The notes beneath the pieces were generated by a model. It ran no database searches and was not told the origin of the DNA. It worked only from the letters and a program-made list of their open reading frames with translations. 64,000 bases of DNA, from NCBI GenBank assembly GCA_027487845.1, contig JAIYCV010000026.1, forward strand, positions 248,001 through 312,000, written 5' to 3'. Shown here piece by piece: positions 4,104 to 7,490 of this stretch; position 1 is the stretch's first letter; each line of letters starts with the position of its first letter. The position numbers were made by a program, and so were the translations under genes. This stretch comes from Flammeovirgaceae bacterium (GTDB taxonomy: Bacteria; Bacteroidota; Bacteroidia; Cytophagales; Cyclobacteriaceae).

Positions 4104-5993
4104 ATGAAAGAAAAAGGATCTATCTCCATCCATACCGAAAACATTTTCCCCATTATCAAAAAATTCCTTTACTCCGACCACGAAATATTTTTGCGTGAGC
4201 TGGTAAGTAATGCCGTAGATGCCACCCAAAAGCTAAAGAAGCTAGCCTCTATGGGCGAATTTACGGGCGAACTGGGCGATACTAAAATTGAAGTAAGCTT
4301 CGACAAAAAGAAAAAAACCATTACCGTAAGCGACAAAGGCCTTGGTATGACGGGCGAAGAAATGAAAAAGTACATCAATCAGATTGCTTTTTCGGGAGCG
4401 GCCGAATTTGTTGAGAAATTCAAAGACAAAGGCGATGCAAAAGACATCATAGGCAAGTTTGGCCTTGGTTTCTACTCGGCTTTTATGGTGGCTGAAAATG
4501 TAGAGATTGTATCGCTATCCTACCAAGAAGGTGCAGAAGCTGCCAAGTGGGAGTGTGATGGTTCTACCGAGTTTGAATTGTCCTCCGCCAAAAAGGAAAG
4601 CCGCGGAACGGACGTTATCCTCCACATCCACAAAGACTCTGAAGAATTTTTGGATGAATATCGCCTAAAAGGTATTTTAGAAAAATATTGCAAGTTTTTG
4701 CCCGTAGAAATAAAGTTCGGCACCAAAGAAGAAAGCGAGCCTGATGGAGAAGACGCAGAAGGTAAGCCAAAAACAAAGACTGCAACGGTTGATCGCATTA
4801 TCAACAACCCTTCACCGCTTTGGGCAAAAGCTCCGAAAGAGTTAACCGATGAAGACTATATAAAATTCTACAAAGAGTTATATCCGTTCTCAGAAGATCC
4901 ATTGTTCTGGATTCACCTAAACGTAGATTATCCTTTCAACCTTACGGGAATCCTCTATTTCCCCAAAGTTAAGAACGACTTTGAACTTCAAAAGAATAAA
5001 ATACAATTGTACTCGCGCCAGGTATTTATTACCGATGAGGTAAAAGATGTTGTGCCCGATTTCTTGATGATGCTTCATGGAATTTTGGATTCGCCCGATA
5101 TTCCATTGAACGTATCGCGTAGCTACTTGCAAAGCGATAGCAACGTGAAGAAAATCAGCGCACACATCACCAAAAAGGTGGCAGACAAGCTTCAAGAGAT
5201 GTTTAAGAAAGACCGCAAGGAGTTTGAAAAGAAGTGGGACGACATCAGCATCTTCGTGAAATACGGTATGATTAGCGATGAAAAGTTCTATGAAAAAGCA
5301 AAAGAGTTTGGCTTATTAAAAAACACAGAAAACGAATATTACACGTTAGAAGAATACAAGGAAAAAGTAAAACCAAACCAAACCGATAAAGACGGTCAGT
5401 TGGTTTACTTGTACACCAGCGATCGCGGCAAGCAAGATTCGTTCATTCAATCGGCTAAAGACAAAGTATACGATGTGTTGGTATTAGATAGCGTGATTGA
5501 TAGTCACTTCATTTCTAACATTGAACCTAAGTTGGAGAAAACGCAAATAAAACGCGTTGACAGCGACACGGTAGATAAATTGATTGCCAAAGACGAAGCT
5601 GTGCCGAGCGTGTTGAGCAAAGAAGAAGAAGAGCAAGTGAAAGGCATCTTTGAAAAAGCTATCAATAACACCAACATGACCGTGGCCGTTGAGTCGCTTT
5701 CACCAGGTGAGCTCCCGGTAATTGTAACCATGAGCGAGTGGATGCGCAGAATGAAAGATATGGCACGCAGCGGTGGCGGTGGGTATGCTTTTATGGGCAA
5801 CATGCCCGACAGCTACAATGTGGCTGTTAACGCCAACCACGGCATTGTGCAAAAAATAATAAAAGCCGAAGGCGAAGAGCAAAAAACAAAACTTGCCAAA
5901 CAGGCTTATGATTTAGCCCTGCTTTCGCAGAATATGCTGACAGGCGCTGATCTCACCAGCTTTATTAAACGCAGTGTGGAGTTGGTATCGTGA
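4104..5993 (+). CDS. htpG: Molecular chaperone HtpG (Hsp90)
   Basis: The 629-residue length and sequence fit bacterial Hsp90, a cytoplasmic ATP-driven chaperone. The N-terminal GHKL ATPase shows LRELVSNAVDA (catalytic Glu and Mg-binding Asn), the lid-associated motif DKGLGMTGEEM and the glycine-rich GKFGLGFYSAFM. The middle domain includes the conserved segment around PLNVSRSYLQ, and the C-terminal dimerisation domain follows. A charged, low-complexity loop (KEESEPDGEDAEGK) lies in the N-to-M linker. The gene appears intact and monocistronic, with the small aspartic-protease gene just after it. Confidence 0.97.
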   Translation: MKEKGSISIHTENIFPIIKKFLYSDHEIFLRELVSNAVDATQKLKKLASMGEFTGELGDTKIEVSFDKKKKTITVSDKGLGMTGEEMKKYINQIAFSGAAEFVEKFKDKGDAKDIIGKFGLGFYSAFMVAENVEIVSLSYQEGAEAAKWECDGSTEFELSSAKKESRGTDVILHIHKDSEEFLDEYRLKGILEKYCKFLPVEIKFGTKEESEPDGEDAEGKPKTKTATVDRIINNPSPLWAKAPKELTDEDYIKFYKELYPFSEDPLFWIHLNVDYPFNLTGILYFPKVKNDFELQKNKIQLYSRQVFITDEVKDVVPDFLMMLHGILDSPDIPLNVSRSYLQSDSNVKKISAHITKKVADKLQEMFKKDRKEFEKKWDDISIFVKYGMISDEKFYEKAKEFGLLKNTENEYYTLEEYKEKVKPNQTDKDGQLVYLYTSDRGKQDSFIQSAKDKVYDVLVLDSVIDSHFISNIEPKLEKTQIKRVDSDTVDKLIAKDEAVPSVLSKEEEEQVKGIFEKAINNTNMTVAVESLSPGELPVIVTMSEWMRRMKDMARSGGGGYAFMGNMPDSYNVAVNANHGIVQKIIKAEGEEQKTKLAKQAYDLALLSQNMLTGADLTSFIKRSVELVS

Positions 5994-6016
5994 TTTAAGT
6001 GACTCAAAATTTTGCG

Positions 6017-6024
6017 TAGCTTTG
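6017..6024 (+). promoter_or_regulatory. -7 element before the small aspartic protease
   Basis: TAGCTTTG matches the -7 consensus TAnnTTTG. It lies 21 bases before the ATG at 6045, which favours that ATG over the upstream in-frame TTG at 6012. I find no convincing -33 TTTG at the proper distance. Confidence 0.45.
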
Positions 6025-6044
6025 ATGAGTTAAACAGCAATTTT

Positions 6045-6464
6045 ATGGGATTAATAAGAACAGAAATTGAAATTACGAATGGTGATGACCTTGCACTTCT
6101 CCGAAAAAGCATAATTACCAAAGACAAGGTAAAAAGGATGATGGTGAATGTTTTGGTGGATAGTGGTGCCTACATGCTTGCTATTAATGAAAACATTAGA
6201 ACGCAGTTAGACTTGCCAACAGTAGACTCCCGGTTGGCAGAAATGGCCAATGGAGAAACCATTCGTTTAGATGTAGTCGGTCCGGTAGAGTTGCGCTTTG
6301 GAACAAGGCGCAGTAGCGTTGATGCCATGGTGCTCCCAGGAGATTCAGAATGCTTACTGGGGGCTATACCCATGCAAGATATGGACTTGGTTATCTTCGA
6401 GAAAGAAGAAAAGATCATGGTCAATCCAGAACAGCCCTACATTTCTAAAAAGCCGTTGAAGTAA
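6045..6464 (+). CDS. Small retropepsin-like (clan AA) aspartic protease, copy 1
   Basis: This 139-residue protein has a retropepsin-type active site, LVDSGAYMLAI, with Asp39 in DSG instead of the commoner DTG. A hydrophobic second motif, LLGAIPMQDMD, follows near residue 105. Families of this type act as dimers on unknown cytoplasmic substrates. No signal peptide is visible. The ATG at 6045 is chosen because the paralogue at 62099 starts at the same position and aligns without gaps over 139 residues, and because a -7 element lies just upstream. The gene ends 22 bases before a strong terminator, which is followed by the 21-bp array. Confidence 0.75.
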   Translation: MGLIRTEIEITNGDDLALLRKSIITKDKVKRMMVNVLVDSGAYMLAINENIRTQLDLPTVDSRLAEMANGETIRLDVVGPVELRFGTRRSSVDAMVLPGDSECLLGAIPMQDMDLVIFEKEEKIMVNPEQPYISKKPLK

Positions 6465-6486
6465 CGTATAACTGTTATTTGTATTA

Positions 6487-6534
6487 AAAAACCTCCAAAC
6501 CTCCAAGGTCTAAAAGACCTTGGGGGTTTTTTTA
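6487..6534. terminator. Strong intrinsic terminator downstream of aspartic protease
   Basis: CCAAGGTC at 6503-6510 pairs with GACCTTGG at 6516-6523 around a 5-base loop. The stem extends outward through CC/GG and AAA/TTT pairs. A T-run (6527-6533) follows, and an A-run precedes, so it may work in both directions between the convergent genes. Confidence 0.85.
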
Positions 6535-6539
6535 TTTCT

Positions 6540-6740
6540 GGTAGCGATACCAAATCTTCAGGTAACTTTACCAAGTACTGTGGGATGGATGCCGCGACCT
6601 GTGGTATTGATACCAAGCACGTGGGTACGTTTACCAAACCATGGGGTAACAATACCAATACTGGCGGTAACAATACCGAAGCTTCTGGTATTGATACCAA
6701 ACTATGCGGTATCATTACCAAACCTCTTGGTAGGAATACC
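6540..6740. repeat. Ten-unit array of GGTA-N4-TACC with exact 21-bp period
   Basis: Units begin at 6540, 6561, 6582, 6603, 6624, 6645, 6666, 6687, 6708 and 6729. Nine are perfect GGTA-N4-TACC interrupted palindromes; the third is degenerate (GGGA-N4-TGCC). The four central bases and most of the nine-base spacer vary, apart from a tendency to AA just after TACC. Because 21 is divisible by 3, several long open frames cross the array on both strands, but the invariant bases include codon third positions while first and second positions vary. The array therefore looks like DNA- or RNA-level structure rather than a gene. It lies between the terminator of the aspartic protease and the 3' end of the matrixin gene. 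Confidence 0.95.
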
Positions 6741-6809
6741 AAAACACGAAAAACCTTTAATTTTGGGCTAATAAGCGGTTTTTGGATGGAAACGACCCCA
6801 ATTCACTAA

Positions 6810-7490
6810 CTATTTGCTCCCGTAGATACTTTGTATGCCGGCAATGTCTCCAGGTTGGAGGTGGTCAACTGTTGGGGAACCGTTCATTATGTTTTGAGAT
6901 CCAACATGTCCAAGACCCAGAACATGCCCCATTTCATGCACAACTACTCTTGATGTTACGTTGTGTTTTGATTGCAAAATTATTAGGCCTACTACTTGAT
7001 TACAGTATGCATCTAGAAATTGTGGTATTCCATAACCACCAATTTTTTCTAATGGTATAAATGCCTTACCGATTGATACATTAGTAGCGTCATTGCTAGC
7101 TTTTTCGATAAAGTTGATATTTGCAACCGATGACCATTCGGATATATATTGGCGAATAGAGGCTCTTTCCTCTTCGGTAATTTGAACCGTTTCAGCGTAA
7201 TTTTGGTATGGAGTTTTAAGCACAAGCCCCTCGTCCATAAACTTGAAGGAAATCAACTTTGCAGCACTCCCAGGGCCTGCCACATTTGGCCCATTTGGGG
7301 AAAAGGGATTGTTGTCGCCAAATTTAAAACCGTAAGTGCAATAGGGAACATCTGCATCTACGCAGTTCCCGGCACTCTTTTGAGATAAACAGGAGTTCAG
7401 TAAGGGAGCATTTCCTGCCTCTTCCTCATTACATGAAAATGCAAACAAGAAAAGAAAGCTGGCAAACAGTATTTTACTTTTCATTATCAA
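6810..7490 (-). CDS. Secreted matrixin-type zinc metalloprotease lipoprotein
   Basis: The 226-residue product has a lipoprotein signal peptide ending in FAFSC (Cys20). A matrixin/metzincin catalytic motif, HEMGHVLGLGH, places His185, His189 and His195 as zinc ligands and Glu186 as general base. Met202 in NIMNG is the Met-turn. The architecture is a lipid-anchored protease of the peptidase M10 type acting outside the inner membrane. Its ATG overlaps the stop of the upstream beta-barrel gene by four bases (ATGA); a second Met six bases further on is an alternative start. Several Cys pairs between residues 20 and 51 suggest disulfides. Substrates are unknown. Confidence 0.88.
   Translation of the reverse strand: MIMKSKILFASFLFLFAFSCNEEEAGNAPLLNSCLSQKSAGNCVDADVPYCTYGFKFGDNNPFSPNGPNVAGPGSAAKLISFKFMDEGLVLKTPYQNYAETVQITEEERASIRQYISEWSSVANINFIEKASNDATNVSIGKAFIPLEKIGGYGIPQFLDAYCNQVVGLIILQSKHNVTSRVVVHEMGHVLGLGHVGSQNIMNGSPTVDHLQPGDIAGIQSIYGSK

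Follow-up and report, generated by a model that had tools for sequence, protein, structure and literature searches.

We analysed a 64,000-nucleotide stretch of a Flammeovirgaceae bacterium (assembly GCA_027487845.1, contig JAIYCV010000026.1, positions 248,001 to 312,000; the window) and found that it carries a solo copy of a class of tandem arrays with a period of 21 bp. The arrays are often palindromic, and their typical home is just upstream of genes for small proteins of about 200-260 amino acids (aa): an uncharacterised family here called X, a protein of Verrucomicrobiota that we call Y, and Z, a family with a true FN3 domain. We regard it as an even call that the array units are bound by protein dimers, perhaps of X itself. 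An earlier sequence-only reading of the window array had proposed a protein-binding scaffold or a row of RNA hairpins; its scaffold proposal fits the results best, its hairpins and its argument from codon third positions are not borne out, and the tie to the X family lay outside its view. The array consists of the following features:

6540..6740, no strand assigned: ten-unit solo array of GGTA-N4-TACC words with a 9-bp spacer (pattern counts, unit comparison)
6582..6593, no strand assigned: degenerate third unit, in register, which reads GGGATGGATGCC and keeps 6 of 8 arm bases

The units start at 6540, 6561, 6582, 6603, 6624, 6645, 6666, 6687, 6708 and 6729, a step of exactly 21 bp, and 9 of the 10 are perfect GGTA-N4-TACC words, in agreement with the layout first reported. 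This word matches nine times in the window (0.35 expected), a count reached by 0 of 100 shuffles, and Tandem Repeats Finder called just 6632-6743 of the array. In pairwise comparisons of the first nine units, the differences amounted to 0.056 in the arms, 0.66 in the N4 core and 0.59 in the spacer (0.74 for unrelated bases), which bears out the variability of core and spacer noted earlier. Core and spacer have thus diverged almost to randomness and the arms alone have been kept: the units look like copies of old common descent that preserve just the eight arm bases, and this is hard to explain without selection on the arms. These results confirm that the ten-unit array is real and selectively preserved.

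The genome of the window (G000, a 4.5-Mb draft) contains two further arrays: one at C32:100368-100568 with ten units and another at C33:181782-181941 that has decayed. The C32 array lies 75 bp upstream of an uncharacterised gene of 218 aa (measured to its start), the single X of this genome. The window array shares the exact period, the dyad-symmetric word, the conserved arms and the free spacers of the class; X does not lie directly downstream of it, its neighbours being an aspartyl protease and a matrixin gene. Scanning the genome_contigs collection with a three-unit pattern yielded 49 stretches, mostly labelled Bacteroidota or Verrucomicrobiota with a few other groups; together with the window and C32 arrays, a script counted 61 arrays and 459 units. 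After clustering of the flanking open reading frames (ORFs), the array was found 52-154 bp upstream of X in eight loci, and a further X piece lay at 577 bp. Five genomes were represented in the scan by two to five GGTA arrays each, of which one adjoins X and the others do not (one of three in G000). In other two-array genomes (for example L034/L051, L023/L053 and L049/L065), neither array was found beside X in this clustering. In L020, L035 and L039, 21-bp arrays with other arms adjoin the GGTA arrays (GGGA/TCCC in L020 and L039, GGGT/ACCC in L035).

Since these first X loci had been picked by the GGTA pattern, we conducted an arm-neutral search by the X protein alone. Matches were found in 19 of the 395 genomes of the taxonomic class (70 matches listed, including that of G000). 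Autocorrelation of up to 900 bp of upstream DNA, over periods of 8-63 bp and with the G000 match set aside, gave 21, 42 or 63 as the strongest period in 65 of 69 X loci. The four exceptions were L087 (139 aa, a fragment), L105 (period 41), L107 (25, with 42 third) and L141 (11). We then added the loci from array-bearing genomes and kept proteins of at least 180 aa with flanks of at least 400 bp. Across all these usable loci, one of the three periods was strongest in 86 of 88 upstream regions of 600 bp, relative to 9 of 91 downstream regions and 52 of 390 control pieces. At a match of at least 0.55, the counts were 77, 2 and 8, respectively; several of these 8 control pieces come from loci that have additional arrays, and periods in multiples of three are favoured by coding DNA.

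The arrays used for the unit, promoter, stem and terminator counts were preselected for a match of at least 0.55 at 21, 42 or 63 bp, so their periods do not constitute an independent test. These 81 arrays contain 5 to 20 units (median 9), and 64 of them end at most 160 bp from the ATG; gene calls in our scripts were simple ORF choices. In many X arrays the units are almost identical and higher-order periods of 42 or 63 bp occur, as would be expected of a functionless variable-number tandem repeat spread by slippage. However, neutral decay would affect all 21 columns, whereas the window array keeps its arms alone, and slippage leaves unexplained why a period of 21 bp is fixed upstream of X in 65 of 69 loci. 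We consider a neutral repeat highly improbable.

Other clusters of neighbouring ORFs were partial: they comprised PKD-like ORFs in 15 of the 81 X loci, a response-regulator-like ORF in 5, and orthologous neighbourhoods, and the clustered ORFs of 14 and 8 loci look like frames read through the arrays. The PKD-like ORFs are long and of surface-protein type (e.g., L075, L097, L142), and their cluster is possibly chained by low complexity.

The period of 21 bp also corresponds to seven codons, and the window array is traversed by open frames on both strands, which would suit a coding heptad-repeat peptide. Among 57 strong X arrays, however, 11 are closed in all six frames, and in 18 the frame of X is open. 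The differences between columns, summed by position modulo 3, were 0.38, 0.39 and 0.43 for the window array and 0.29, 0.28 and 0.28 for 53 of the 61 GGTA arrays. The lack of a codon-position pattern argues against coding, and with frames that are not kept open we rejected the protein-coding reading as scarcely credible. The sequence-only reading had also dismissed a protein role, on the ground that third positions were fixed and the others varied; the dismissal stands but this ground does not, as the modulo-3 sums are nearly equal. The opposite pattern, a protein-like variation at third positions, is absent as well.

The array could instead be transcribed as the 5' leader of X and function at the RNA level, in the manner of the tandem-repeat antitoxin of type III toxin-antitoxin systems. 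Its position upstream of a single gene would fit: the interval between array and ATG is A-rich, and a word that we take to be the Bacteroidota promoter motif occurs there at 0.39/kb, relative to 0.92/kb upstream of the array and 1.04/kb downstream of X. Because this word is not enriched in the interval, the array may be transcribed. As a whole, the window array is more stably folded than its dinucleotide shuffles (z -4.8), but palindromic units must be so; the single hairpins range from 0 to -2.4 kcal/mol, and the window and C32 arrays folded no better than arm-preserving shuffles on either strand. An RNA stem of the sense strand should favour G-U pairs and allow compensation, whereas a duplex-DNA site predicts equality. 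In the 29 arrays with a conserved stem, the consensus pair occupied 1049 of 1188 cells, a proportion for which the stem rule itself selects, and the remaining cells included 4 compensatory, 29 G-U and 39 A-C cases; no wobble bias or compensatory signal was found. Rfam gave no match in the window. By these tests the RNA reading, including the mini-hairpins first proposed, is not supported.

In the available part of PMC5086642, the type III systems ToxIN, CptIN and TenpIN are described with a tandem array directly upstream of one gene, and the X arrays are placed likewise. In contrast to these systems, X arrays often consist of dyad-symmetric 21-bp words, and terminator-like sites, a defining mark of type III, were found in 0 of 81 array-to-gene intervals, relative to 10 of 81 equal stretches after X. 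No toxin of the ToxN, CptN or TenpN type was recognised downstream, as 0 of 68 X members matched a Pfam family at 0.01. We therefore rejected the type III reading on the terminator scan, and a functional RNA in general appears distinctly unlikely.

A scaffold for DNA-binding proteins fits these results best, as had been suggested earlier: conservation is confined to the arms, the units have dyad symmetry and keep an exact period, and nothing points to selection for RNA pairing. The exact step together with free sequence between dyad words points to dimers stacked along one face of the DNA. Each unit would be the inverted-repeat site of one protein dimer, and spacing by two helical turns would line up some ten dimers on the same side of the helix, where they could bind together. 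An array beside X would serve autoregulation or assembly, and solo arrays such as that of the window could represent further chromosomal sites with a regulatory, organising or titrating role.

The words themselves vary widely between X loci (e.g., GCTGCGCAGC, TCCTTAAGGA and TTTCTA/TAGAAA). We read 30 loci for the arms of close relatives of the G000 X, three of which had too little upstream DNA and one of which (L170) encodes a 40-residue fragment. These relatives present the arms GGTA, GGGA, GGG.. or GGGG with matching partners, and hence changes on both sides of the palindrome. Relative to column shuffles, dyad symmetry was significant in 29 of the 57 strong X arrays at p < 0.05 and in 17 at p < 0.01, and by a stricter rule 29 of 82 arrays have a conserved stem with four pairs or more. 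Motifs become more similar with increasing identity of the X proteins (Mantel r = 0.33, p <= 0.001). Words in such number require an equal number of readers, which makes X the best linked candidate. Tentatively, these arrays might form a private DNA-address system in Bacteroidota, Verrucomicrobiota and a spirochaete, in which each of several paralogous small proteins would read an array of its own, made of about ten palindromic words spaced by two turns. Protein and word would change together very fast, many insulated pairs of address and reader would coexist in one chromosome, and solo arrays would mark further loci for the same reader.

Alternatively, another, unlinked protein such as a nucleoid or partition factor could bind the arrays and X would be regulated only through them. 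This would account for solo arrays that persist away from X; an exact period of two turns is suitable for any protein that binds DNA cooperatively, and comparisons with Pfam, NCBIfam and the Protein Data Bank (PDB) assigned no fold or activity to X. Yet the words differ widely between X loci, even within one genome, and one shared reader could not recognise them all, so that we consider this alternative unlikely.

Several observations weigh against X as the reader of palindromic DNA sites. Dyad symmetry was not significant in 28 of the 57 strong arrays, many of which have nearly identical units so that all columns seem conserved, and 53 of 82 arrays lack a conserved four-pair stem by our own rule. 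The rank correlation between word and X similarity over all pairs is 0.04, and two X proteins that are 84% identical (L076 and L077) have unlike arrays, with a similarity of 0.39 where the null reaches 0.43 at its 95% level. The words change very fast, and likeness is quickly lost between related X. In the drafts G502, G509 and G517, the X that was fetched has GGGG, GGGA or GGG.. arms and the solo arrays have GGTA arms, which counts against a simple model with one reader, unless these drafts lack a second X. The array of G004, a genome of the window's genus, does not adjoin the X of that genome. Inheritance alone would also lead to the sharing of a linked motif, transcription of the array may occur as described above, and a solo array between convergent genes has no obvious operator target. 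A specificity patch in X was sought by eye in six close pairs with unlike arrays and rejected, as the differences look scattered.

None of 68 X members matched Pfam at 0.01, and NCBIfam yielded one weak match among them (conjugal TraP, E 0.0035), as did PADLOC; X could thus not be placed in a ribbon-helix-helix or Rep family. The PDB gave no convincing relative (best E 0.35), and in PHROGs two of seven proteins had weak matches to tail fibres (E 0.017 and 0.022). Columns kept in at least 60% of members are mostly of a structural kind (W, P, G, F, L, Y and a few polar residues), and we recognised no catalytic pattern among them. The median pI is 8.6, and, by a crude measure, 88 of 94 proteins do not start with a strongly hydrophobic stretch; X is presumably cytoplasmic. 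The terms FN3-like and helical, where applied to X, are our reading of its sequence; the Pfam fn3 family matches Z and not X. Up to 18 X matches were counted per genome, fragments included (18 in G507 and 17 in G511, labelled a spirochaete). A viral or plasmid origin was rejected: 6 candidates in viral_contigs were not confirmed, and one X used as query matched no phage or plasmid record.

Regularly spaced sites with a linked autoregulated gene, helical phasing and cooperative binding are known from ParR/parC, the heptads of the omega repressor and plasmid iterons. X arrays are similar in their spaced sites upstream of a linked gene and in their phasing, and presumably in cooperative binding, but their words change from gene to gene, they have solo copies, and X was absent from the plasmid records searched. 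CRISPR (clustered regularly interspaced short palindromic repeats) consists of almost identical repeats of about 21-48 bp that alternate with spacers of comparable length. Like CRISPR, the window array is regular with variable stretches between repeats; unlike CRISPR, its units are not near-identical, 8 of 21 columns being conserved as a 12-bp palindrome, and Rfam found no match in the window.

Several arrays per genome with one beside X, patchy occurrence and spacers that can be common to the arrays of one genome are also compatible with mobile palindromes spread as selfish elements, with X as their mobilising partner. Repetitive extragenic palindromes (REP), their bacterial interspersed mosaic elements and their REP-associated tyrosine transposases (RAYT) are likewise described, in the part of PMC3733652 available to us, as short intergenic palindromes with a partner gene and several copies per genome. 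However, the REP units described there have a GTAG or CGTC tag at one end, whereas X arrays are strict 21-bp tandems whose units lack such a tag, and the window units are GGTA-N4-TACC with variable spacers. No Pfam transposase, tyrosine transposases included, matched the 68 X members, the conserved X columns are mostly structural with no recognised catalytic pattern, and the arms have been kept long after duplication. A REP-like origin is therefore very unlikely. The available part of PMC9426551 describes intergenic tandem repeats in Planctomycetota and nothing of the 21-bp X-array kind. As the sequence-only reading had supposed, a literature search, with most subscription journals outside it, found no description of such arrays.

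These arrays mark a family without a Pfam match at 65 of 69 protein-found loci, by free sequence at a fixed 21-bp step. They constitute a rare and directly testable clue to the function of patchily distributed uncharacterised genes and, if X does read the words, these would represent a natural set of orthogonal DNA-binding pairs.

The class extends to two other protein families. In Verrucomicrobiota the array precedes the longer protein Y, whose C-terminus is similar to X; the distance is 63-79 bp in seven loci out of eight, and in the remaining one, L037, the called ORF overlaps with the array. The X profile matched 17 of 32 array-bearing genomes, which correspond to 33 of the 49 scan stretches taken as genome handles, without L023. 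Among the 15 others, eight are labelled Verrucomicrobiota (including Akkermansia) and each has Y; the seven remaining genomes without X are labelled Erysipelotrichaceae, Prevotellaceae, Flavobacterium, Anaerolineae (two), Nostoc and Alcaligenaceae. A small helix-turn-helix-like gene, which we take to be of the XRE type, often lies about 140-240 bp away on the far side of the Verrucomicrobiota arrays, with its stop towards the array (L018, L024, L025, L033, L038, L052, L055, L056 and L063). The gene after Y in L024, L052, L055, L056 and L063 starts with MPFDP(T/S)KPA.NSP.SSAEMR.QL and presumably resembles phage structural proteins.

Family Z was found through a model built from the L142 array (R1), which matched one of 10 genomes, its own, at L142 and at one other place (C45), where a related but different word lies upstream of an FN3 protein (PF00041). 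Relatives of this protein occur in 23 of the 395 genomes. In the 27 Z loci with enough upstream DNA (three had too little), the period was 21, 42 or 63 bp upstream in 17 and downstream in 0; in four more loci 44 bp was strongest upstream and 22 bp next. The Z proteins that begin with MKA (L234, L235, L245 and L251) have such arrays of 22/44 bp rather than 21 bp. G000 has two Z copies, C4:40905-41504 (L228) and C43:7652-8224 (L255), whose upstream arrays of 42 and 21 bp present other words.

Arrays were thus found beyond G000, in the genus (G004) as well as in the contig scan. The strict three-unit GGTA pattern was found in one of 96 genomes searched, G000 itself, and allowing three mismatches extended this to 4 of the 62 genomes of the genus (G000, G036, G045 and G056). 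The last three have one or two matches each with 2-3 mismatches, and in G045 the matches to a control pattern outnumber those to the array pattern. A GGTA profile (R2), which covers GGTA-like words only within the genus, matched 9 of the 62 genomes at E <= 0.01. The matches inspected were the arrays of G000 and G004, an 18-bp repeat in G001 and about two units in G034; the remaining ones (G018, G020, G030, G032 and G046) had E-values of 0.003-0.008. The G004 array has the word GGAATCGATACT and lies at a contig end, away from its X. Thus, among the inspected R2 matches, clear 21-bp arrays of a GGTA-like word were found in G000 and G004, which are the two genomes of the 62 with X matches.

The X of G004 is a 119-aa protein that covers X residues 3-105 at 33% identity. 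This lone N-terminal part (L071 278-1854, G004:C515) directly follows a response regulator and a receiver-like protein, and a response-regulator-like ORF was also seen in 5 of the 81 X loci; possibly, the N-terminal part of X forms a domain of its own with a link to two-component proteins. A possible different 21-bp array beginning with GGTAGTCGTACATAA was seen in G045 (C8:201918-201992, L067), a genus relative with no X detected; R2 did not match this genome, and the control pattern matches there too.

The array of the window is surrounded by the following features:

6497..6529, + strand: intrinsic-terminator-like hairpin just before the array (15 pairs, 7 of them G-C, then a T run)
6012..6464, + strand: gag-like aspartyl protease gene, left neighbour (Pfam match, PF13650/PF13975)
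6810..7490, - strand: matrixin-like metallopeptidase gene, right neighbour, convergent (Pfam match, PF00413)
4104..5993, + strand: gene 5' of the protease gene, which we take to be HtpG-like (ORF list)

The array thus lies after a strong terminator and between convergent genes, as previously noted. The hairpin region (6470-6545) folds with a z of -4.5, and the hairpin presumably belongs to the upstream genes. This setting makes an organising or titrating site more likely for the window copy than an operator of a neighbouring gene. The htpG and protease genes are found together in the relative G041 (73.5% identity over 1470 bp); the DNA that follows them there is different and contains no GGTA units or array, so that it offers no clean empty site for comparison. 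The gag-like aspartyl protease itself is multicopy, with 4 matches in G000, and occurs in 13 of the 62 genomes of the genus.
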